IMG/VR virus record: IMGVR_UViG_3300002052_000634 | Location: 1 to 64,000 of that record | Reading direction: 5' to 3' (one strand) | DNA length: 64,000 nucleotides | Source of the DNA: a virus | Shown here: positions 12,262-44,337 of the stretch, one piece after another | Layout of the letters: every line of letters begins with the position of its first letter | Numbering within the stretch: position 1 is the first letter of the stretch | Notes under the pieces: model-generated | Seen by the model: only the letters and a program-made list of their open reading frames with translations | The model's database searches: none | Told to the model about the DNA's origin: nothing | Made by a program: the position numbers and the translations under genes

Positions 12262-14796
12262 TTATAACAATCTCCTGATACGGTCTATGAACTTTTTCTG
12301 GAATTCTTCATTACTAAGTAATGCTTCCTTGAGTTGTTCTCCAGCTTGTTCCGCAACATTATCTAAAGCATTTTCAGGTAGATTAACTTCTACGTTTTCT
12401 ATTTTAGTTCCTAAATCTACATTTTGGTCAATCGCAATCCTATCTTGTATGATTTGTCCTACGTTTCCTAATCCTCCACCGCCAGCAAAAACTCTTTCCC
12501 ATTCCTGTTTAAATTCGTTAAGTTTTTCTCTAGCTTGCACCATCCAGTTGTCCCAAAATGGAGTCGTAAGGTCAGGACTGCCTAACAAGTTTCTTAACTG
12601 GTCTGCAGGCAATTCTGCAAGTCCTCCCTGTGCAGGCATAGGCAAGTCAAACATTTGTCTTATAATTTCTCCTATTGCCTGTTGCCCTTGCTGTGAAAAA
12701 TGACTAAAATATTCATCTATAATCCTCTGGTCGAACATATTTTCTTTGTAACGTTTAGCCAATTCCTCTGGAGATAATTGTCTTAGTTCCATTAATCTGC
12801 GAAGTCGTGTACGTTCAAATTCGTCTGCTTGTTTATATTGTTGATATAAACTTGTTGCTGTTTGGAGTTCTTTCTGTTTTTCTTGTAATAAAGCCAATTG
12901 CTGTTGATGTCGTAATTTTGTAAGTTGTAGCATGAATTGGGCTTGTCCTATACTTTCTTTATCAAGTTGCAATTGTCTAATTTTAAGCTCTAATATTTGA
13001 GATTCTGAAGCTCCCATAACTTTTAATATATTTAACGCAGTATCTCTAACAGTATCTAACATATCCTGTCTATATCTAGTTTGTGTCTCTAAAAGAGCAT
13101 TTTGAAGTTTTAATCTTTCAACTTCTTCTTCTTCTAAAGTCATATATTCGGACAATATATCCAACTGTTCTAGTTTAAATTTAGCTATATCCTTTTCGTG
13201 TGCTCCCATAATTTTCATTATTTTGACTTGAGAATTTATAACTTCTTTTTGTTTAGCTAATTCATTAGTTCTAACTTTTTCTAACCCTTCTAAATCTTGA
13301 GTGGTTTTTGTTAATTTTTCTCTTTGTTTATTTTCTTCTTCTGCTTTTTCAACTGCTTTATCTTGTTGCTGTATATATTCTTCTAAAGTAAGATTACCTA
13401 CATTTTCTCGAATTTCTTTTATAGCGTCAAGAAGAGATTCTGCATTTCCTTTTTCATCTATTCTTGTTAATCCTCCCCAAAAATCTCTTTTTGCTAATTC
13501 TTCCGTAAAAACTGATAATTCTCCCATTTTAGCACTGGCAAATCCAATCATATCTCCCATTGCTCTTATATTAGGACGTAAAGTTACTAACCAATCATTT
13601 ATAATTCTTAAAGTTTCTACAAATCCTTGACCTCCTGTAATACCTGTCATAAATTCATTGCCTAAAACTGCTAATATGTTTTTAAATCTTTCAGCTTGGG
13701 CTGTAACTGTTCCCATTCTAATTTCTTCCATCCGTTTAGCAAAACCCTCCGCATTTTCCCCTGCGAATTCTAAAGCTTCATTCCATTCTTTAAAACTATC
13801 TAATAATAATTGAATAGAAATTGCCCCTCTAGTAGCAAAAACTTGTTGAATGGCTCTACTCTGTTTTTCTGTTAATTTAGTTCCTGTATTCATTGCACTA
13901 TGAATTTGTTTTAATGTTTGAACAAAATTTATAGGTTTTGTAGAGTCAAAAGTTATCCCAAAAATTTCTGCTAATTTTCCTGCATTTTTACTTAATTGCA
14001 CAATAGCACGACCTGTTAATCTTCCTGCTCTTCCTGCTTTTAATAAACGAGTATTTAAAAAACCCAAAGTTGTTACAACGTCTACAAAACTATCGTCTAG
14101 TCCTGAAACGTAAGGAGCAAATTTAGAATAACTAGCAATTAATTCTGATAACTGAACATCCTGTGTTGCATATGTAAAGGCTAGAACGTCTGCAATTCTA
14201 GTAAATGCTTCAGCATCTGTCATAGTTTCCGTTATAGATTTACCCATCGTATTAAAAATACCAGCTAAAGCTCTAGTAGTTTCTTTTAGAGAATTTCCTG
14301 TTCCTATGGCAAGATTAACAGCAGGTGTAAAAGCATCTAAGGCTTGCTTGGTACTTAAATTAGAGGTTCTTAAAAAGTAAAATCCTTCTGCTAGGTCTTT
14401 AAGACTTATTCTAGATTTTACTGCCATATCAAGTATAGCACTTTTAACTAAAATCATATCTCTATCTATTTCCTGAGATGTACCGTGCATAACTGTACGG
14501 ATTCGAGCCATTTGTTCTTCTAATTGTAGATTTGACCTTATTACATCACCTACGGTACGTATAAGTCCCATAAAAACGCTACGTAACAATAACCACACAG
14601 GAATTGTTAATAAGGCACGTTTAGTAAGATTTCCAATTACAGTACCAAAACTTTGTGTAGTTTTAGTAGTTACTCCCATAGTTTTTCTGGTTTTGCTTAT
14701 CTCTCTTTCCATACCACGTAAACCACTAATTACAGCCTTATCGCCTTTTAATGTGGCTAGGAAGCTAATAAGGTAAGACCTCGCCTCTGTTGCCAT
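12262..14796 (-). CDS. Tail tape measure protein
   Basis: 844 aa with the TP901-type core: helical N-terminus, then SLKETTRALAGIFNTMGKSI, YATQDVQLSELIASYSKFAPYVSGL and LLKAGRAGRLTGRAIVQLSKNAGK. A hydrophobic segment lies near residues 50-75 (TKRALLTIPVWLLLRSVFMGLI). Residues about 480-680 form a long coiled coil rich in Gln/Glu/Leu. It sets tail length and is ejected with DNA. 844 aa implies a tail of roughly 120-130 nm at about 1.5 angstrom per residue (rule of thumb). Confidence 0.92.
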   Translation of the reverse strand: MATEARSYLISFLATLKGDKAVISGLRGMEREISKTRKTMGVTTKTTQSFGTVIGNLTKRALLTIPVWLLLRSVFMGLIRTVGDVIRSNLQLEEQMARIRTVMHGTSQEIDRDMILVKSAILDMAVKSRISLKDLAEGFYFLRTSNLSTKQALDAFTPAVNLAIGTGNSLKETTRALAGIFNTMGKSITETMTDAEAFTRIADVLAFTYATQDVQLSELIASYSKFAPYVSGLDDSFVDVVTTLGFLNTRLLKAGRAGRLTGRAIVQLSKNAGKLAEIFGITFDSTKPINFVQTLKQIHSAMNTGTKLTEKQSRAIQQVFATRGAISIQLLLDSFKEWNEALEFAGENAEGFAKRMEEIRMGTVTAQAERFKNILAVLGNEFMTGITGGQGFVETLRIINDWLVTLRPNIRAMGDMIGFASAKMGELSVFTEELAKRDFWGGLTRIDEKGNAESLLDAIKEIRENVGNLTLEEYIQQQDKAVEKAEEENKQREKLTKTTQDLEGLEKVRTNELAKQKEVINSQVKIMKIMGAHEKDIAKFKLEQLDILSEYMTLEEEEVERLKLQNALLETQTRYRQDMLDTVRDTALNILKVMGASESQILELKIRQLQLDKESIGQAQFMLQLTKLRHQQQLALLQEKQKELQTATSLYQQYKQADEFERTRLRRLMELRQLSPEELAKRYKENMFDQRIIDEYFSHFSQQGQQAIGEIIRQMFDLPMPAQGGLAELPADQLRNLLGSPDLTTPFWDNWMVQAREKLNEFKQEWERVFAGGGGLGNVGQIIQDRIAIDQNVDLGTKIENVEVNLPENALDNVAEQAGEQLKEALLSNEEFQKKFIDRIRRLL

Positions 14797-14846: not shown

Positions 14847-16262
14847 TCATTTTTTCCTATGGAATACCATATGAGGAATATTAGTTTTAGTGTCTACTTT
14901 TCTACCTTTTCTTGATTTATTAGATTTTTCTTTTTCCTCTTTATATTTTTGTTTACTTCTCCAAAATATATAAGCATCGCAATTTCCTGACCATATTACT
15001 TTCCCATTTCGTCTAACTAATAAAATATGATATTTAGGAACTAATATATCATATACTCTTCCCTTATATTTTATCCATTGTGCTTTTTTGCCTTTGATTT
15101 TCCAATAGTTCTTATATTTTTTTAAAAAAGTAATACTCCAAGTATTATATCTCTTATTTTTACAAGAATGAACACAAAAACCTGCTTTTATACCAAGTTC
15201 CATCAAATCGTCTTTCATTCTTACTGAAGATGTGTCTATATAAAAACTATTTTTACTTTTTTTGCATCCGTCTCCTAGTTTATATGAATTTAAAAAAATT
15301 CTTATCATTTGAGGATTTAAATTTTTAATAAATTTAGGAACGAATTTATCCCTTGCTTTTCCAAATTGCTTAAGATATTTATATAATTGTTTAGAAGCTA
15401 AACAAAATTCTTTATCATAGCTCTGAAATTTCCAGGGTAATCGTGTCAATAAATTATAAATTATAATATATTTTTTAGGATTTGCTCTTTTTGATTGTGC
15501 AATTCTCAATCTATAATTGCCCTTTGAAGGGCACGAATAACTTCCTTCACTTAAATACCATCCTAAAAATTCTAACCAATCTTCCATTTTAATCTTAATA
15601 AAGTTTGTTTTTTTATCAAATTTAAACCATAAATTTTTATACCATCTATTAGGAACTAACAATTTTTTAGTCACACTATCTAAAGTAAAATATCTTTGAT
15701 ACTGTCCTTTCCATAATCCTGTATTCTTAAATACTAACCAAAAATTGTTAAAAATTTCAAAAGATTTTTTAAATGTCCATCTCAATTTTTTATCTACATT
15801 TATTCCTACAAAATGACTATGATTCGGAGTAGTTACTAAATCAAATTGTTTAGTTTTTAATTTGAACATTTCTCCATTATAACTATAATCAATATATTTA
15901 ATAGGTTTTTGATACTTTATAATATCGTTCTCAGGATTTAATGTAGCTACTTTTTCTGTTCTATCTAAATCTTTAAAATATTTCCAACCCTGGTCGGTAA
16001 GAATTTCTGTTTTTTCATCATAACATCTTATTTCATCATCAATAACCGCTTCACTGATATAAGGCTCATGCGAAGCTAAATCTCTATATAAACTAGAATA
16101 AAGTTCTAAATAATATAAAAATAATATTTGAGCTTTAGTTAAATCGCTATCATTATCAAATAATTTTATAGTACCTAGTTCCTTTGCTCTATTATAAATT
16201 ATTTGCCATCTATCTGACTTAGCTAGATTTCTCAGAATTCGTAGATTCATCAAATCCCCCAT
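14847..16262 (-). CDS. Second tail-assembly-chaperone-like frame, interrupted by an intein
   Basis: 471 aa overlapping the preceding chaperone-like frame by 44 bp in the +1 (-2) frame, the position of gpGT-type extensions. Extein 1 is residues 1-79 (helical, ...YISEAVIDDEIR), the intein is 80-427, and extein 2 is residues 428-471 (CDAYIFWRSKQKYKEEK...). The intein begins with Cys and ends Asn-Cys, with Hint motifs and LAGLIDADG-like sites. The ligated host protein would be about 123 aa. It may begin at ATG 16262 by re-initiation, at the internal ATG 16250 preceded by GGGGGA, or by frameshifting. Chaperone function is inferred from position before the tape measure. Confidence 0.75.
   Translation of the reverse strand: MGDLMNLRILRNLAKSDRWQIIYNRAKELGTIKLFDNDSDLTKAQILFLYYLELYSSLYRDLASHEPYISEAVIDDEIRCYDEKTEILTDQGWKYFKDLDRTEKVATLNPENDIIKYQKPIKYIDYSYNGEMFKLKTKQFDLVTTPNHSHFVGINVDKKLRWTFKKSFEIFNNFWLVFKNTGLWKGQYQRYFTLDSVTKKLLVPNRWYKNLWFKFDKKTNFIKIKMEDWLEFLGWYLSEGSYSCPSKGNYRLRIAQSKRANPKKYIIIYNLLTRLPWKFQSYDKEFCLASKQLYKYLKQFGKARDKFVPKFIKNLNPQMIRIFLNSYKLGDGCKKSKNSFYIDTSSVRMKDDLMELGIKAGFCVHSCKNKRYNTWSITFLKKYKNYWKIKGKKAQWIKYKGRVYDILVPKYHILLVRRNGKVIWSGNCDAYIFWRSKQKYKEEKEKSNKSRKGRKVDTKTNIPHMVFHRKK
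14982..16025 (-). mobile_element. Intein with LAGLIDADG homing endonuclease
   Basis: 348-residue intein. Block A is CYDEKTEILTDQGW with the nucleophilic Cys1. Block B is TTPNHSHFV, with the TxxH motif. Two LAGLIDADG-like dodecapeptides are LEFLGWYLSEGS and FLNSYKLGDGC. The C-terminal block is VYDILVPKYHILLVRRNGKVIWSGN followed by the +1 Cys of the C-extein (split here by the text: the block is VYDILVPKYH then ILLVRRNGK). The penultimate residue is Gly rather than the usual His. Self-splicing by Cys1/Asn-end/Cys+1 chemistry is expected. Confidence 0.9.
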
Positions 16263-16878
16263 ATATTAAACTACTAATATAATTAAACGTTTTTGTCATT
16301 AAATCGTCATCAATACAGTTCTGGAAATCGTTATAATTTTCAAAATGCTTTTTCCAAGTATTTTTATCTTTAACTTCTAGAACCAAATAAGTAGTATAAC
16401 TATTAACTCTAAGTAATAATTGGTCTTCTATTGAATGTTGAAGCAAATCTGTTCTCTCTACATTAATATCCCACATCTTTCTACGTAAATCGATTATATC
16501 TTTACGGATATTTCCAATTACTTTTATATCTTCTATTTTTACAAGTTTCAGCAATAAGGCTTCAATCTCTGCTTGCATATTTTTCATTTCGGCTTCCATC
16601 TTAGCTATATCAATACCTTTTTTCTGGTAAAGGTCAACCCACTGTTTTCTAAAAAGCATAGTATCGTCTTTAATTAATTCTAGGTACATCTTTCTTTGAA
16701 AATCTAAGATATTTTGACGTTCTACAAAATTAGGTTTTCTAACTCTATATTGTTTCTCGCCAGATTTAAATTCAATAGTATTATTTTTAATTACATGCCC
16801 CATAGTCATATTTTGTTCTATCTCATTTAAAACTTCTAACTGTTTTTTTGCCAAGTTCTTACGTTCTTCTTTATTCAT
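16219..16878 (-). CDS. Tail assembly chaperone-like protein (G-frame)
   Basis: 219 aa, alpha-helical and strongly charged, with a coiled region near residues 95-135. It lies between the tail tube gene and the tape measure, where G-type chaperones sit, and its 3' end overlaps the intein-containing frame. It begins with AAGGAG upstream. Such chaperones bind the tape measure during tail assembly and are absent from the virion. The assignment is positional; no sequence family was recognised. Confidence 0.65.
   Translation of the reverse strand: MNKEERKNLAKKQLEVLNEIEQNMTMGHVIKNNTIEFKSGEKQYRVRKPNFVERQNILDFQRKMYLELIKDDTMLFRKQWVDLYQKKGIDIAKMEAEMKNMQAEIEALLLKLVKIEDIKVIGNIRKDIIDLRRKMWDINVERTDLLQHSIEDQLLLRVNSYTTYLVLEVKDKNTWKKHFENYNDFQNCIDDDLMTKTFNYISSLIYGGFDESTNSEKSS
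16250..16262 (-). promoter_or_regulatory. GGGGGA overlap: recoding site or internal ribosome site
   Basis: On the minus strand the overlap reads TATGGGGGATTTGATG. The upstream frame reads TAT GGG GGA and the downstream frame ATG GGG GAT. A -2/+1 shift on the G-run would fuse the frames, as in chaperone pairs of other phages. Alternatively GGGGGA acts as Shine-Dalgarno for ATG 16250. The downstream frame has a stop just before ATG 16262, so the shift must occur here. Confidence 0.5.
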
Positions 16879-16912: not shown

Positions 16913-17137
16913 CTACTCCTGCCTGGTTTTAAATTCAAGTTTAAATAATTGCGATTGTATATCTAAAAGATTTTTTAGATTACGACTATGCTCATATACA
17001 ATTTCTTTTGCCAAAGATTTATATAAATTGGGAGACAATACTCCTTCTTTATCTAAAACTTCTACACGTTTACACAATACCCCAACCAAGCGACGTGTCT
17101 CACTGTCTATAATATTATATATTTTTTCTTTATTCAT
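16913..17137 (-). CDS. Small helical protein between tail tube and chaperone
   Basis: 74 aa, all-helical pattern (IYNIIDSETRRLVGVL...LYKSLAKEIVYEHSRNL). Start at ATG 17137 with AAGGAAAA upstream. It follows the hairpin after the tail-tube gene. Function unknown; tail assembly inferred from position. Confidence 0.6.
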   Translation of the reverse strand: MNKEKIYNIIDSETRRLVGVLCKRVEVLDKEGVLSPNLYKSLAKEIVYEHSRNLKNLLDIQSQLFKLEFKTRQE

Positions 17138-17195: not shown

Positions 17196-18437
17196 TTATA
17201 TACCAAGTTTGGACGTGTCAGCACTGATAATTAAATTCTCTCCTTCGAGAGTATCATCCGCAGTAGCATATTCCTGAACAGTTTGTCCAAGTCTAATTTC
17301 GTTTGGTGTTAACCCTGTAGCTTTGAACCCATATTTAAATGTGCCCTTCGTGTTGTCAGAGAATATCTTGACTATCAACGCAATATCATCTGAAAACTGC
17401 TCAACGTCTATCAATCCATAGTCAGCACTCTGTCCAGCCAGGACTTCCTCTATCGTGTGAGATTCGAGGATTCTTCCCAACGTGACCGTAACAGTGTTAT
17501 CCGTTACGCCTCTAGCAACAACGTCTTTGTTTCCTATTTCCCTAATATCCTCTCTATCAAAAGCCACGTCTATTGTTACGCTCTGTAACCTGTAGACGTA
17601 ATCACTTGAACCAGGTTTTCCACTGGCAGGAATATAGAGATATATTGAAACTGAGTCCCCTAACAATGCAGGGACATCCGAATCATTTTCTGAGAATATC
17701 GTATCAGGAGCGGTTGCAGACGTGTAATACGTCTTTATAACGTCACTAGTCTGTATACTGGTTATCGTGAGTACCTTAGTACCGTCACTGTAACTGAAAT
17801 CTGTACCATCTACTAATTCGGTAGATACTCCACTGCGAACTCTAATTACTCTCTCGATATACTTACCAGATTCATTAGGATTCTCAGCAGGAAGTTTAGC
17901 ACTAAGGTCTATTTCATTATCTCCACCAGAACCAGCTTCATGTCTATTATAAATGAAATATTTGTTAGTACCTTGCCAAATCTTTGCAGATTCTCCAACG
18001 AAATCAAAACTTCTCTCTATAATAGCCTGTGGGTCGGAAATAGTTATCGAAAATCCAGCAGTTCTAAGTGCAGGATACTGGACTGTGCCTTTGAAAGTAC
18101 CATCATCATCTTCAAGATAACCGCATATATCAAAATATGGAGTTTTGAAATCGCCAAGTGTGATTTCATCCTCTCCATTTGCACCCTTAGTTGTAGTATT
18201 TACTATCTTCTGCCAAAACTCGATTGAACCATATTCAAACTGAGTTAATCTGTAAGTAACTGTAGGGCTAGTTTGATTATAGCCTACCGCATCTTGTCTA
18301 CCAATCTCATTAATCTCTTCCCTATTTAGGGCAACTGTCGGGTCAATTGACTGTGCTCGGTCTATCTCCGCATCAGCCACATCTCCGTTAATCGGGAAAA
18401 TTCTAGGTTTATAACCTGAACTGTGTATTAAAGCCAT
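17196..18437 (-). CDS. Major tail (tube) protein
   Basis: 413 aa, start after GGAGGAAC. It has a beta-rich repetitive structure with two NREEINEIGRQDAVG / DREDIREIGNKDVVARG motifs, suggesting an internal duplication of the tube fold (about residues 25-150 and 280-400), separated by an insert with SGVSTELVDGTDF...DVIKTYYTS that looks like an added Ig/phage beta domain. Less AT-rich wobble use than neighbouring genes and flanking hairpins fit a highly expressed gene. It forms the tail tube of a siphovirus. Confidence 0.75.
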   Translation of the reverse strand: MALIHSSGYKPRIFPINGDVADAEIDRAQSIDPTVALNREEINEIGRQDAVGYNQTSPTVTYRLTQFEYGSIEFWQKIVNTTTKGANGEDEITLGDFKTPYFDICGYLEDDDGTFKGTVQYPALRTAGFSITISDPQAIIERSFDFVGESAKIWQGTNKYFIYNRHEAGSGGDNEIDLSAKLPAENPNESGKYIERVIRVRSGVSTELVDGTDFSYSDGTKVLTITSIQTSDVIKTYYTSATAPDTIFSENDSDVPALLGDSVSIYLYIPASGKPGSSDYVYRLQSVTIDVAFDREDIREIGNKDVVARGVTDNTVTVTLGRILESHTIEEVLAGQSADYGLIDVEQFSDDIALIVKIFSDNTKGTFKYGFKATGLTPNEIRLGQTVQEYATADDTLEGENLIISADTSKLGI

Positions 18438-30849: not shown

Positions 30850-31917
30850 TTATTTATTACGACCAAAAGCTACATCGTCAATTTGCTTCTTTATTTTTCT
30901 ATAATAACCATCATCATTAATTTTAGAACCGACTATTTCAGAAGCAGTATCTTTGTTTGTTTTGGCTCTTGCCTTTTCTAATGATAATCTAGCTCTTTCG
31001 AACTTATCATCATTAACTATTTCTTCGTCTGTTAAGTAATCTTTACCAATTATCTCTTGTCTCTCAAGAATTTTCTTCGCATTTTCTTGATAGAATTTTA
31101 TTTTCTTATCAGTATTTTTCTTAACCTTTGCAAGTTCTGCCTCTAACTTTTTTTGAGTATTATTACTCTTTTTTGATTCATCAAGATGTTGCTTTATAGC
31201 TTTTCTAACACCAGCTTTAAATATCTCTTCTCTTTTAGAAGTCTCAGTTATAATTGTTTTCATATCTTTACGAGCTTTTCTTAGTTTTCTCTGATGTTTC
31301 TTCATAGCTTTCTGGTAACGTTTCAAAAGAGTAGTCATCTTTAATTCTCTTGCTCTTTTAAGAATTTTATTTCTAACTGAATCAGCACTTACGCCTAATT
31401 TTTTCAAGGTTTCCTTAACTTTAGTTTGAGCTAATCTTGCTAAAGCATTACGAACATGAACTTGGTCATTTATAGGAAACATTCGAATTTTACGAGGTTC
31501 TCCTGTTCTCTTATTTTTTACTGTCTTAACAATAGCAAATAAACTATCAGGAAGTGCTTTTCGTGTCTTAGTAGTCATTTGTTCAGACTTACCTGGCTGT
31601 CCTGCTCCTGGACGTTCTTTTCTTCTCATCTGACCGCCACATTTGGGACATTTCAAATCTTTACAGTGAGAATCTGAAGCTTTAGAAAAACCGCATTTAA
31701 TACATTCGCAATTAAACTTAGCACTTTTTTCTATTTCATCATCACCTTCTATTTCCTTTACTGTAACATCAATATCTTCAACCTCTATTAAGTCTTCGGA
31801 GACAGGAGCTTCTGGCTTCTTCTCCTCTTTAGCTTTAACTTTTTCCAGTCTTTCGGAAATTACTTTCTTATTATCTTCCTCTGTAGATTCGAGAAAATCA
31901 TGAATCTTTTCTGCCAT
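30850..31917 (-). CDS. Nested scaffold protein from internal start
   Basis: In-frame ATG at 31917 (residue 392 of the fusion) has GGAGG seven bases upstream, the best ribosome site in the gene. It would give a separate 355-aa protein with one zinc ribbon, the HVRNALARL domain and the coiled coil. This is the lambda C/Nu3 arrangement, where the scaffold is also made alone in excess. Confidence 0.7.
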   Translation of the reverse strand: MAEKIHDFLESTEEDNKKVISERLEKVKAKEEKKPEAPVSEDLIEVEDIDVTVKEIEGDDEIEKSAKFNCECIKCGFSKASDSHCKDLKCPKCGGQMRRKERPGAGQPGKSEQMTTKTRKALPDSLFAIVKTVKNKRTGEPRKIRMFPINDQVHVRNALARLAQTKVKETLKKLGVSADSVRNKILKRARELKMTTLLKRYQKAMKKHQRKLRKARKDMKTIITETSKREEIFKAGVRKAIKQHLDESKKSNNTQKKLEAELAKVKKNTDKKIKFYQENAKKILERQEIIGKDYLTDEEIVNDDKFERARLSLEKARAKTNKDTASEIVGSKINDDGYYRKIKKQIDDVAFGRNK

Positions 31918-33090
31918 ATTTTTTCCTCCTTTTTCCGAAGCTTTTGTAGGCTCATTTGCCTTATCTTTAGTTTCATTTATTGTTGCAATTCTTTTGCTAG
32001 TTTCTTTATAACTATCCGTATAAAACTTCAATCCGCATTTAGGACATGCCACTTGTCTAACATTTACATCCGATATTCCTTCTATATTTATTTTAGCGTT
32101 ACACTGAGGACAATTAATATGTCCAGAATATATGAATCTAGATTTAAATAAAGGATTAGTTTTACTATTTTTAGCAAAAGTAATATTATATTCTTTAGAA
32201 CAATTCATACATTTTAATTTGGCTTTTTCATCATCTCTTGATATAATTAACCAATTATTTACTTTACAGGAAGGGCAAAGTATTTTAAAATCTTTAACTT
32301 GAGGGGGATATTTCATATTTCCAGTATTATCAAGAATAGCAAAACATTTGGGACATTTAATACTAACTTGACCTTCACCTACTTCAAACTCTTCTCCACA
32401 ATTTGAACATTTTACCTTTATGAGAGTTGCGGTAGTAGATTGTCCAGCCATTAATATTTCATCTTCTTTATATTTGGAAGCATAAACAAGTTCAGGTAAA
32501 GCAGTATCATCATTAGCCATCATCAAAACTTTAGCATTTTTAAAAGCAGGAGCGTTGTCTTTGTCTTCGTATATTAAAGCTCCTCCTGCGATTTCCATGT
32601 TGTGAAGTTCATAAGTTCCGTCTTTATAATATTTGCGTTTATCCTTTGGAGACCATATTTCGAATGAAGAAGAAAGTTTCTTCTTCTTAAATAGTTCTTG
32701 AGCCTTTTTCCATAGTTCTATATAGTAAGTTTTGTAATAAACACCATAAGCAATTGCTTCATTTTCCTTTTGACGATAACGAAAATCTATATAATGCCCA
32801 ACTACTTTATCTCTATCGTGATTTATATTTATAGGTTTTCCTATAATTTGCGGAAGAACCTTTATTAACTCATTTTTTGGTAATATAGCTCCATTAGCAT
32901 TGGGTTCGTTTATAAAAGCATATACCGTTTTAAAAAATCCTAAATCCCTAGCTGTTATGTCCATACCTCTTGCTTTAGCTATTTTTTCTAGCTCACTTTT
33001 TTCCTTACCTTCTTCTAATAGAATCGTTTCTGAATTTTCTGTATAATCATTCAAAAATTCTTCTATTATAACATTATTTAATCTTTCCAT
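30850..33090 (-). CDS. Prohead protease fused to zinc ribbons and scaffold
   Basis: 746 aa. Residues about 1-200 are a serine prohead protease (XkdF/S78-like): PININHDRDKVVGHYIDF holds the likely catalytic His and LSSSFEIWSP the likely Ser. Residues about 225-380 and 455-485 hold four zinc ribbons (CSNC/CPKC, CPSC/CMNC, CPQC/CPKC and CIKC/CPKC). Residues about 535-585 have the RMFPINDQVHVRNALARL motif seen in other phage proteases. The rest is a long basic coiled coil of scaffold type. The zinc array is unusual. Confidence 0.8.
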   Translation of the reverse strand: MERLNNVIIEEFLNDYTENSETILLEEGKEKSELEKIAKARGMDITARDLGFFKTVYAFINEPNANGAILPKNELIKVLPQIIGKPININHDRDKVVGHYIDFRYRQKENEAIAYGVYYKTYYIELWKKAQELFKKKKLSSSFEIWSPKDKRKYYKDGTYELHNMEIAGGALIYEDKDNAPAFKNAKVLMMANDDTALPELVYASKYKEDEILMAGQSTTATLIKVKCSNCGEEFEVGEGQVSIKCPKCFAILDNTGNMKYPPQVKDFKILCPSCKVNNWLIISRDDEKAKLKCMNCSKEYNITFAKNSKTNPLFKSRFIYSGHINCPQCNAKINIEGISDVNVRQVACPKCGLKFYTDSYKETSKRIATINETKDKANEPTKASEKGGKNMAEKIHDFLESTEEDNKKVISERLEKVKAKEEKKPEAPVSEDLIEVEDIDVTVKEIEGDDEIEKSAKFNCECIKCGFSKASDSHCKDLKCPKCGGQMRRKERPGAGQPGKSEQMTTKTRKALPDSLFAIVKTVKNKRTGEPRKIRMFPINDQVHVRNALARLAQTKVKETLKKLGVSADSVRNKILKRARELKMTTLLKRYQKAMKKHQRKLRKARKDMKTIITETSKREEIFKAGVRKAIKQHLDESKKSNNTQKKLEAELAKVKKNTDKKIKFYQENAKKILERQEIIGKDYLTDEEIVNDDKFERARLSLEKARAKTNKDTASEIVGSKINDDGYYRKIKKQIDDVAFGRNK

Positions 33091-39002: not shown

Positions 39003-39630
39003 GTTCTTGTTTCCTTTTCCATTTATAATATCTTTTCATAATTTCTTCGAAGCTTACAGGATAGAAATTCCAACAATCTACACCAACATTGATAGCATCG
39101 GTAAAACCAAAGGAGGTTTTTATCCGTTTAATTTGCCATGCTAAATGAACATGCCCTACTAGATTTATTTTATAGTTAGGGTCGACGTGAGCAGGATTGT
39201 GTACTATATTTATTCTTTTACCTCCATATCGAATTACTAATCTTTCGATAGGAGTTTTTACTCCATTATTTCCGTCATGATTTCCTTTACAAAACAAAAT
39301 TTTTCCATTCAATTTCTTCTCTATTTCTGTAGGTTTAATCGGAAGTCCTTCTCCTTTTTTTCCACCTGGAGAATTCTTAAAAATGAAATCGCCAACAAAA
39401 ATAACTAAATCTTCTGGTTTTACTCTTTCATTCCAACGTCTAATTAATTCTTTATTCATTTTATCTAGAGATTCGAAACTAATAGCGAATTTTCGTTGTT
39501 CTTCTTGGGATTTATTTTTATAAATTTCATATAACTCTTTATCTTCTTTAGTCATAAATTCAGTACGACCTACATATTTTAAAATATTAGCATGGTTAAA
39601 GTGAGTATCTGCTGAAAACCAAAGTTTCAT
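38965..39630 (-). CDS. Calcineurin-like metallophosphoesterase
   Basis: 221 aa with all metal-binding motifs: SADTHFNH near residue 6, VGDFIF near 81, KGNHDG near 115, and GHVHLAW near 158. It hydrolyses phosphodiesters or phosphomonoesters; substrate unknown. It overlaps the CCA-adding enzyme by four bases, so the pair with the nucleotidyltransferases may form an RNA end-healing set (inference). Confidence 0.9.
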   Translation of the reverse strand: MKLWFSADTHFNHANILKYVGRTEFMTKEDKELYEIYKNKSQEEQRKFAISFESLDKMNKELIRRWNERVKPEDLVIFVGDFIFKNSPGGKKGEGLPIKPTEIEKKLNGKILFCKGNHDGNNGVKTPIERLVIRYGGKRINIVHNPAHVDPNYKINLVGHVHLAWQIKRIKTSFGFTDAINVGVDCWNFYPVSFEEIMKRYYKWKRKQEHGEQNKHKKNSK

Positions 39631-40622
39631 TTCTTTCCTTTCTCATCTGCTTCTTTCAAAGGACTATCTTGTTCTAAGTGATGTAAGACTAAATTTTTTA
39701 CAATTTCTCTTCTGTCATTAGACCACTTTAAATACAAAGCTAATCTGGTCACAAATTCTACTGCTAACAATTCATGCTTTATATAATTACTTCTATCTTC
39801 TCTATCAGTTCTCACGAAAGGTTTACCAATATCATGTAACAGTCCTGCCCATCTAAGATTTATTTCTTTAGGAGTATTAAGAACTACTCTCTTTGTATGT
39901 TCCCACAAAGTAAAGTTATGATGAGGGCTGTTTTGTTCATAAGCTATTTGCAAAGATAATTCTGGAAGTATAAAATTCAATAATTTTGTTTTTGCCAAAA
40001 ATTCTAATCCTACTTCTGGATGGTCTGCCAATAGTAATTTATCGAGTTCGGCTACCCATCTTTCCTTACTAATCTGTAATATTTTATAATTCATAGAATT
40101 TACAGCATGATAAATAGAAGGATGTATTTCAAATTCTAACTGAGAAGCGAATCTAGCTACTCTAAGCATCCTCAAGGGGTCTTCTTTGAATCTCTCATTT
40201 GGCTTTCCAACACATCTAATAATTTTATCTTGAATATCTTTTCTTCCACCAAAAGGGTCAATGTATCTATCTCCTGTTTTAGCAATAGCGTTAATGGTAA
40301 AATCTCTTCTGCTTAAATCAGCAGTGATGTCTTTGACAAAAGTAACTTCAGGTTTTCTACTTCCAGATTTATATTTTTCATTTCTAAATGTAGTTATCTC
40401 AATTAGATTACCGTTTATTTTTACTCCTAAAGTCCCGAATCTTTTTCCTGTCAAATAAGGTCTTCTACCTGCTTTTCTAATAGAAGCTTCAATTTCATCT
40501 GGAGTTAAAGGAGTAGTAAAATCAAAATCTTTAGGAACGTTCCCTAAAATTTTATCTCTAACTGCTCCTCCTACCATATAGAGAGGACTAACTATTTTTT
40601 TGACTTCTTCGTATATAGTCAT
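39627..40622 (-). CDS. CCA tRNA nucleotidyltransferase with HD domain
   Basis: 331 aa. Class II pol-beta nucleotidyltransferase head: YMVGGAVRDKILGNVPKDFDF with the GG...D.D site, ISR-like RRDFTINAIA, and EDPLRMLRVARFASQL. A C-terminal HD domain has LLHDIGKP and ends NLVLHHLEQD. It adds or repairs the 3'-CCA of tRNA, or tail-adds to RNA. It is shorter than bacterial enzymes (about 410 aa). It overlaps both neighbours. Confidence 0.88.
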   Translation of the reverse strand: MTIYEEVKKIVSPLYMVGGAVRDKILGNVPKDFDFTTPLTPDEIEASIRKAGRRPYLTGKRFGTLGVKINGNLIEITTFRNEKYKSGSRKPEVTFVKDITADLSRRDFTINAIAKTGDRYIDPFGGRKDIQDKIIRCVGKPNERFKEDPLRMLRVARFASQLEFEIHPSIYHAVNSMNYKILQISKERWVAELDKLLLADHPEVGLEFLAKTKLLNFILPELSLQIAYEQNSPHHNFTLWEHTKRVVLNTPKEINLRWAGLLHDIGKPFVRTDREDRSNYIKHELLAVEFVTRLALYLKWSNDRREIVKNLVLHHLEQDSPLKEADEKGKK

Positions 40623-41565
40623 ATAAAATCCCTATTGTAAATTTTTCGATTTCTTCAGTTCTCGGTTTAGCAGGTAGCGTACTCGATATTGTCAAAGATT
40701 CCATTTCTCTTTCTAGTTGCTCAGAAAATTCCAAGACTTGTTCTACAGTCCATTTGCCTTCTCTAATATCTAGAAGTAATTGTCTTTCTTTCAAAGGGAA
40801 TTCTAATTTGCCAGTTTTCAATAATTCTATTCCTTCTAACATTAATCTTATTAAATGACTCGCAAATTTTACATCGAATCCATATCTATTTAACAACCCT
40901 CTCCTATTTCCTACTTTTGATATTCTTTCTTCTAAACTCTTTATAACTTTCTTAATTGGTAACGATGGAGAAAAATTTATATCTCCGATTGAAACAAACT
41001 TTACATTATTATATCCCGATTTTCTTAATTTAATAAAATGAGGACAAGTAGATAAAGTAATAACTTCTATTAGAAATTTATTTTTATCTATTTTCGAAAG
41101 ATAATTAACTCCATTAATCAAGTCAAAATAACAATCTTTCTTTATTATCATTTTGTGTTTTTGAGAAAAAGCATATCCTAAAAATTTTTGTTTTAATCCT
41201 TTATGTGGAAAAAGATGTTTAATATCTAATAATTTCTGTCCTAATTCATTTTTGAATACTATATTTTTTTCGTTTACAAATAATATCTCCAAAATATTAG
41301 GGTTATTTGAAAGAGCGAGTTGGATAAATTTTCTAAATTCGTAGAGTTTTCTATCTATAGCTTTATCAGTATTTTTTCCGTTTTCGTCTTTGGCTTTTAT
41401 AGAAAGATTAACTTCTTCACATTTTTTAAATCCCAATATATATTCTATAGGAGATAAGAAAATCCCTATATAATCTTTGTCAGAATTTTCAGTGTTAGTT
41501 CCATACAAATGAGACCCTGATATTATTTCTAAAATTTTATTTTTATCGGCAATTAAAGGATTCAT
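40588..41565 (-). CDS. RlaP-like nucleotidyltransferase
   Basis: 325 aa. ISGSHLYGTNTENSDKDYIGIFL carries the G-S...S-D-x-D metal and nucleotide site of the minimal pol-beta superfamily (here given in two parts: GSHLYGT and SDKDYIGIF). The rest resembles RlaP-type predicted nucleotidyltransferases associated with RNA ligases in other genomes. Overlaps the CCA enzyme by 35 bp and is preceded by ATGA overlap. Substrate likely RNA; unproven. Confidence 0.75.
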   Translation of the reverse strand: MNPLIADKNKILEIISGSHLYGTNTENSDKDYIGIFLSPIEYILGFKKCEEVNLSIKAKDENGKNTDKAIDRKLYEFRKFIQLALSNNPNILEILFVNEKNIVFKNELGQKLLDIKHLFPHKGLKQKFLGYAFSQKHKMIIKKDCYFDLINGVNYLSKIDKNKFLIEVITLSTCPHFIKLRKSGYNNVKFVSIGDINFSPSLPIKKVIKSLEERISKVGNRRGLLNRYGFDVKFASHLIRLMLEGIELLKTGKLEFPLKERQLLLDIREGKWTVEQVLEFSEQLEREMESLTISSTLPAKPRTEEIEKFTIGILYDYIRRSQKNS

Positions 41566-43589: not shown

Positions 43590-43748
43590 TTATTTTTCTA
43601 ATTTCGTTAATTCATCATCAGTAATGGTACAACATACAACATTCTCATCTTCATTATAATAAACAGCATAACCTTGTCTAACTAGAGCAGTTATAAGTTG
43701 GTCTGTATAATTTTTGTCTAATATTTGGATTTTAAGTTCGTATTTCAT
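43590..43748 (-). CDS. Small hypothetical protein
   Basis: 52 aa. KYELKIQILDKNYTDQLITALVRQGYAVYY, DENVVCCTITDDEL (partial). An alpha-beta pattern and a CC pair. Its start overlaps the 3' end of the first Mom-like gene by 17 bp. Unknown. Confidence 0.55.
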   Translation of the reverse strand: MKYELKIQILDKNYTDQLITALVRQGYAVYYNEDENVVCCTITDDELTKLEK

Positions 43749-44337
43749 TTAGAATTTTCTTTCTGGTTTTTTTATTCAATATTTTTATAAATCTTTTTTT
43801 TAAAGGTTTTTTCTTTAATTCTAATCTATTGCCATAAATTTCTTTCATTTTCCCAACTGCTTGTATTCCATGTTTATCATACAAGGTTCTCGGTGAAATT
43901 CTTTTACCATCAATAAAAAATAAAGGATGACCGTCCTTTCCAATAATTCCATCAAATATCCATCCACTTGCTTTATATACCATTCCATTATGACCAGCAA
44001 AAGGGTCTGAATATGTAACAATCAAATCATAATTATATGATTTTTTGATTTTTTTTATTACTTCTGCTGTTAAACTACTCATACTCCATTTGTGGTTATC
44101 TTTACCGACCATTCTTGCTAATTCAATAACTTTTATATTTTTTTGACTGTATTTTTTTTCATAAATCCTCGACCTACAATTTGTAAATACCAAACAACCT
44201 TCTTCGTGTCCATAAGCAAATAAAATCCCTTTTACTTCTCCAAGATAATGCCATTTATTTAACATAGTATTTGCTATTTTTTTATCCAATTTGATAATTG
44301 GTGGAGTTTTCTGTAATCCGCTTAATTTGTAATTCAT
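43732..44337 (-). CDS. Mom-like DNA-modification protein (intact copy)
   Basis: 201 aa. GNAT-like Mom family: ELARMVGKDNHKWSMSSLTAEVIKKIKKS, then DLIVTYSDPFAGHNGMVYKASGWIFDG, and GKRISPRTLYDKHGIQAVGKMKEIYG. Mu Mom adds an acetamido group to adenine to evade restriction. The second, split copy is at 46574-47193. It probably modifies the phage genome against host nucleases; the precise modification is unknown. Confidence 0.8.
   Translation of the reverse strand: MNYKLSGLQKTPPIIKLDKKIANTMLNKWHYLGEVKGILFAYGHEEGCLVFTNCRSRIYEKKYSQKNIKVIELARMVGKDNHKWSMSSLTAEVIKKIKKSYNYDLIVTYSDPFAGHNGMVYKASGWIFDGIIGKDGHPLFFIDGKRISPRTLYDKHGIQAVGKMKEIYGNRLELKKKPLKKRFIKILNKKTRKKILNEIRT

Follow-up and report, generated by a model that had tools for sequence, protein, structure and literature searches.

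The second of two overlapping genes located upstream of the tape measure gene in an uncultured virus carries a class 1 intein that includes a LAGLIDADG endonuclease. The window analysed here comprises 64,000 nucleotides and was taken from the record of an uncultured virus (100,617 bp). In our view it is very probable that a selfish class 1 intein invaded this second gene (TAC2), that TAC2 is translated from its own ATG without frameshifting, and that the precursor splices while the endonuclease mediates homing.

Organisation of the TAC1/TAC2 locus

The genes and motifs of the locus described below are all encoded on the minus strand. The original prediction had placed the gene pair in the gpG/gpGT position before the tape measure gene, which agrees with the order of the genes detected: tail tube, small ORF, TAC1 (ORF1), TAC2 (ORF2) and tape measure. 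The putative major tail tube protein (413 aa, 17196..18437) was assigned by its position and by a weak match to the PHROG 365 tail protein (E 0.02). This protein, which served as the anchor for finding the relatives, is itself weakly assigned. Its orthologues (88-33% identity) are located upstream of the ORF pair in the relatives. The tube gene and TAC1 are separated by a small conserved ORF of 74 aa (16913..17137), orthologues of which (74-77 aa) were detected in the same position in the loci L007, L008 and L042. TAC1, the first tail-assembly-chaperone-like ORF (219 aa, 16219..16878), is kept in 14 loci. The tape measure protein (844 aa, 12262..14796) was recognised by PF10145 (E 3.5e-12).

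The ORF call for TAC2 (14847..16262) yields a precursor of 471 aa if translated from the first ATG, or of 467 aa if the start is the second ATG (16250). The latter is the likelier start, as the alignment with the relatives begins there. Counted from there, the precursor consists of an N-extein of 75 aa (16026..16250), which aligns with the intein-free TAC2 of the relatives, the intein of 348 aa (14982..16025), extending in the alignment from Cys1 to Gly-Asn348, and a C-extein of 44 aa (14847..14981, including Cys+1 at 14979-14981 and the stop codon), which aligns with the C-terminal part of the intein-free relatives. The ligated TAC2 would have 119 aa (second ATG) or 123 aa (first ATG).

The relatives, which come from uncultured phages, were gathered using the tube protein as query and subsequently using alignments; the ORF pair is present in 14 loci, including the window. 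Searches of viral contigs with the extein alone or the tape measure protein alone matched just the contig identical to the window, the extein query gave no match in the phage collection or in the GTDB genomes, and no prophage relative was found in the genomes searched.

Based on the gene order, TAC1 and TAC2 are referred to as putative tail assembly chaperones. Neither protein could be assigned convincingly to a family in PHROGs, Pfam or the PDB, and TAC1 gave no significant PDB, PHROG or profile match. Its AF2 model (pLDDT 83) matched a tail assembly chaperone as the second-ranked viral fold, which is the best viral match with a function in its name but a weak one (E 5e-3, prob 0.98, TM 0.3-0.4). 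The TAC2 model is of low confidence (pLDDT 69), and a Foldseek search with it provided no fold match. A comparison by hhalign with the overlapping pair in the same position of a Geobacillus phage was also negative.

The intein and its predicted splicing

The predicted intein of 348 residues at 14982-16025, equivalent to residues 80-427 of the 471-aa ORF, was recovered with exactly these borders, and the alignment with related inteins contains both the Hint motifs and the LAGLIDADG endonuclease that had been proposed. Cys1 (16023-16025) is invariant among the related inteins aligned, as are the Thr and His of splicing block B (T-P-N-H with Thr66 and His69, 15819..15830). The first and the second LAGLIDADG helix (LEFLGWYLSEG, 15543..15575; IFLNSYKLGDG, 15267..15299) retain the acidic Glu and Asp, respectively, and the latter is invariant. 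Block F (VYD...H) has its Asp and His in place, and block G (NGKVIWSGN) is followed by Cys+1; both the C-terminal Asn348 and Cys+1 are thus present.

PF14890 gives a weak match that falls short of its curated cut-off (E 1.1e-3), and the thymidylate synthase family PHROG 85 matches the intein part of the precursor (E 6e-11). Full-length matches to inteins of annotated phages reach E 3e-28 and include phage records such as Lak-A1, the GMA6 terminase and the P1201 ThyX. Since these matches extend over the whole length and have their endpoints near the borders of the TAC2 intein, the intein call is not a product of chance. The GC content is 24.8% in the intein compared with 27.4% in the exteins. 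Judged from these sequence features, 14982-16025 is a class 1 intein with a LAGLIDADG homing endonuclease.

The penultimate residue of block G is Gly347 and not the His that is usual, though not strictly required, in class 1 inteins. A penultimate Gly is common to the TAC2 intein and the five inteins compared with it. In mycobacteriophage inteins the penultimate His is poorly kept (PMC5050341), and the intein in the recombination directionality factor of phage Bethlehem, which has a penultimate Gly, splices completely and faster than its His mutant (Kelley 2016, PMC5050341). By analogy, Gly347 seems compatible with a class 1 intein capable of splicing, and prompt constitutive splicing of the TAC2 intein is likely. 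Excision has also been shown for an intein in a phage dCTP deaminase (PMC6293099). Cys1 and Cys+1 would carry out the acyl transfers and Asn348 would cyclise, resulting in a mature TAC2 of 119 aa joined through Arg75-Cys76.

It is improbable that the intein has lost the ability to ligate and cleaves at one or both ends, with the phage using two halves or a truncated protein. While the replacement of His by Gly and the small deletion that breaks TAC2 in this motif in L042, unless this is an assembly error, would fit such a loss, the nucleophiles are all intact and the reading frame is intact in both contigs that carry the intein. Moreover, a penultimate Gly is the norm in this group of inteins and is present in a mycobacteriophage intein that splices, and in relatives without the intein the two exteins form a single conserved chain.

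Translation of TAC2

The 44-bp overlap and the G-run of the original prediction are both present: the TAC2 ORF (14847-16262) overlaps the TAC1 ORF (16219-16878) by 44 nt, and a Shine-Dalgarno-like GGGGG run (16256..16260) is located 5 nt before the ATG at 16248-16250. It had been proposed that, if the frame is also reached by ribosomal frameshifting, expression would need two recoding steps, the shift followed by protein splicing. TAC1 and TAC2 would then be a pair of the lambda gpG/gpGT type, in which a low-level frameshift makes gpGT (PMC5009743), and the frame with the intein would be reached by programmed frameshifting (+1/-2) at the G-run. The gene order from tube to tape measure, the overlap of 32-44 nt with the GGGGG run and the +1 frame in the window are in line with such a scenario, and +1 frameshifting has been reported as very likely in halovirus HSTV-2 (PMC5009743). 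The comparison of the 14 loci, however, speaks against the two recoding steps, given the variable frame and spacing, the separate ATGs of TAC2 and the G-run that is not conserved.

The spacing between ORF1 and ORF2 ranges from -32 to +20 nt and covers all three relative frames (0, 1 or 2). The overlap is 32 nt in the window, L007 and L015 (with the ATG at which the relatives align taken as the start), 8-11 nt in L032, L042 and L045, and 1 nt in L012 and L013, whereas the ORFs are separated by gaps of 2-20 nt in L008, L014, L016, L033, L040 and L046. At the position of the window's GGGGG, the sequence before the ATG is GGAGAATACG in L007 and GGACATAATT in L015, the run itself being replaced by GGAGAA and GGACAT, respectively; L007, the closest relative, thus has a plain Shine-Dalgarno sequence, GGAG, where the window has the G-run. 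In L008 and L040, ORF2 lies in the same frame as ORF1 after a stop codon. A stop codon between the ORFs closes the ORF2 frame in L008, L040 and L033, each with a good Shine-Dalgarno sequence before ORF2, which in L008 (AGGAG) and L040 (TAAGGA) is located six bases before the separate start. AGGAG or GGAG precedes several ORF2 starts, and no clear Shine-Dalgarno sequence was detected before ORF2 in some loci (L016, L045).

The frame and the spacing of the two ORFs are variable, and there is no conserved slippery run. Frameshifting in TAC2 is mostly refuted by this comparison and is considered highly unlikely. The simplest reading suggests that the G-run is the Shine-Dalgarno sequence of an independently, probably coupled, initiated ORF2, and the TAC1/TAC2 family appears to have dropped the lambda-type frameshift or never to have had it. 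Translation of TAC2 would start at its own ATG (probably 16250), after the Shine-Dalgarno-like run in the terminal part of TAC1, and would involve ordinary, probably coupled, initiation and no frameshift. Where ORFs overlap ahead of a tape measure gene, frameshifting should accordingly not always be assumed.

Intein-free relatives and the insertion site

TAC2 is contiguous at the intein site in 11 other loci, to which the two flanks of the intein, once joined, can be aligned gap-free; intein-free homologues, which the original prediction had proposed to look for, thus exist, and the absence of residues 80-427 from them identifies the intein as an insertion and not as a part of the chaperone. 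This count leaves out L046, in which the motif is too divergent to be placed exactly, and L042, which is broken there. The residues across the empty site are R|T in seven loci, R|C in two, R|V in one and R|A in one. The extein joint of the window (VIDDEIR|CDAYIFW) corresponds to VINDELR|TDAYVLW in L007, and the two empty sites with Cys are VIEDDIR|CEAYLLY in L014 and VITDEIR|CDAYLKH in L032. The natural Cys+1 in these two alleles indicates that the nucleophile at +1 can pre-date the invasion.

A TAC2 profile matches the precursor in two pieces which meet at profile position 76, and Asp72, Arg75, Ala78 and Tyr79 are invariant in an alignment of eight rows. As placed by these alignments, the intein splits the D-x-x-R|x-x-A-Y motif, which is among the most conserved of TAC2. 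The host had been expected to lack a conserved nucleotide-binding site of the kind invaded by other inteins; the site is indeed not a nucleotide-binding one, but it is conserved. The codons of D-x-x-R|T/C-x-A-Y in intein-free alleles would be the target of the endonuclease, and their cleavage may lead to the spread of the intein among co-infecting relatives.

Although just one intein-bearing allele of TAC2 was found (two identical contigs), the notion that residues 80-427 are a native domain or an assembly chimaera has next to no probability and is not viable on present data, in view of the contiguous flanks in 11 relatives, the intein motifs and the second contig (IMG/VR 3300027901_000377), which is 100% identical over 9150 bp and spans both junctions.

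In L042 (7426-7470, contig 3300045950_000282), TAC2 is devoid of the D-x-x-R-x-x-A motif and its frame is changed at the window's intein site. A further insertion at this site was considered and rejected, as a short deletion with a frame change was found instead. The break may have been left by cleavage and subsequent repair, may mark a pseudogene or may be an error of the assembly.

Related inteins in the phage lineage

According to a scan with the intein, the nearest relative of the TAC2 intein is located in the tape measure gene of IMG/VR contig 3300033153_010326. This intein (L013:5669-6739) interrupts a precursor of 1245 aa at FTYA|TQDVQL, a motif that is conserved in its empty form in the window, L007, L012, L014 and L015. 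The two inteins are sisters in the tree (97/92) and share 37% identity (BLASTP), which implies that their split is not recent. Their host genes show a reciprocal state: TAC2 is empty in the L013 phage, and the tape measure gene is empty in the window. As sisters residing in adjacent genes within a single phage family, they make it possible to test how inteins reach new sites.

Further inteins of the relatives were detected in PolB, a terminase, a 5'-3' exonuclease, a phosphoesterase-like protein, a tyrosine recombinase, a glycosyltransferase-type ORF and a very large tail protein; the terminase, phosphoesterase and tail labels were given by inspection of the sequence. With inteins in many genes of the relatives the phage lineage is intein-rich, as has been reported for some crAss-like phages (PMC7886860), and its tail genes share in this intein load. 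A single clade of tail-gene inteins is not supported, as the intein of the big tail protein groups with that of the exonuclease.

The intein in the probable tail protein (L053/L068, record G012, contig 3300032342_001227) lies in an open frame of about 2640 residues. A related intein was found in a glycosyltransferase-like protein beside a capsid-like gene (L049:2146-4338, contig 3300033149_005682). In Bacteroides phage BF766P4 (L023:1279-2697), a protein annotated as hypothetical is a peptidase M15, a probable endolysin, with a LAGLIDADG intein inside and Cys+1.

Since splicing is likely to be prompt and constitutive, plain selfish persistence seems more probable than a regulatory role, and we regard the use of the tail-assembly-gene inteins (TAC2 and, in the relative, the tape measure gene) as regulators in this lineage as very doubtful. 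If this were the case, the splicing rate would determine how much of the second chaperone is made, or when, and replace the dosage role of frameshifting in lambda-like phages.

Comparison with known systems

Known phage inteins are mostly found in DNA-handling proteins. The annotated intein hosts among the phage-collection matches listed were ThyX, TerL, a nucleotidyltransferase, NAMPT, a methylase, RNR and DNA polymerase, in addition to proteins annotated as hypothetical or phosphatase. The inteins of Corynebacterium phage P1201 ThyX and Gordonia phage GMA6 TerL match the TAC2 intein over its full length (24-25% identity) and resemble it in Cys1, TxxH and the Gly-Asn end, but their hosts, ThyX and terminase, are not involved in tail assembly. 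The same applies to the recombination directionality factor of mycobacteriophage Bethlehem, known here from PMC5050341 only. The L013 intein belongs to the same phage family and an adjacent gene but differs in host gene, site and +1 residue (Thr).

The mycobacteriophage inteins of Kelley et al. 2016, including one in the portal protein, occupy conserved motifs in phage-specific genes and have a variable penultimate residue (PMC5050341), but unlike in TAC2 no tail chaperone-like protein is among their hosts (PMC5050341). All phage intein hosts have been reported to bind nucleic acid after splicing (PMC5050341), and the inteins in TAC2 and the tape measure gene run against this rule. This suggests that a conserved motif in an important gene, and not nucleotide binding, counts in the choice of the site.

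Like lambda gpG/gpGT, TAC1 and TAC2 are two ORFs between the tail tube and tape measure genes, but they have separate starts and no conserved frameshift, and they share no detectable sequence similarity with the one tested pair in that position (Geobacillus phage). Searches of open-access full texts did not reveal any earlier description of inteins in tail assembly chaperones or tape measure proteins. The element is ordinary; its host gene is new as far as this literature was searched, which extends the intein host range to a small tail-assembly protein and, via the relative, to a tape measure protein.

Other genes of the phage

A DAHP-synthase-family gene, which reads like KdsA of the lipopolysaccharide Kdo synthesis, is located beside an MFS transporter resembling AmpG (L004:17366-18157 and L004:15893-17119; about 78.9-81.2 kb of the record). 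Genes for ClpP, a peptide deformylase and a trypsin-like protease were found near the KdsA-like gene. The KdsA-like/AmpG-like pair and the neighbouring genes suggest a Gram-negative host.

Two adjoining nucleotidyltransferase genes are located at 39627-41565 of the window, one of which matches a tRNA nucleotidyltransferase (PHROG 2244, E 4e-73), despite which no tRNA genes were found in the window. A Mom-like DNA modification protein is predicted at 43732-44337 (PHROG 1384, E 3.5e-29), and a free-standing protein of 282 aa (L005:8546-9394) reads like an HNH-type homing endonuclease. Furthermore, a protein of 746 aa with several weak zinc-ribbon matches is encoded in the structural region of the window (30850-33090).
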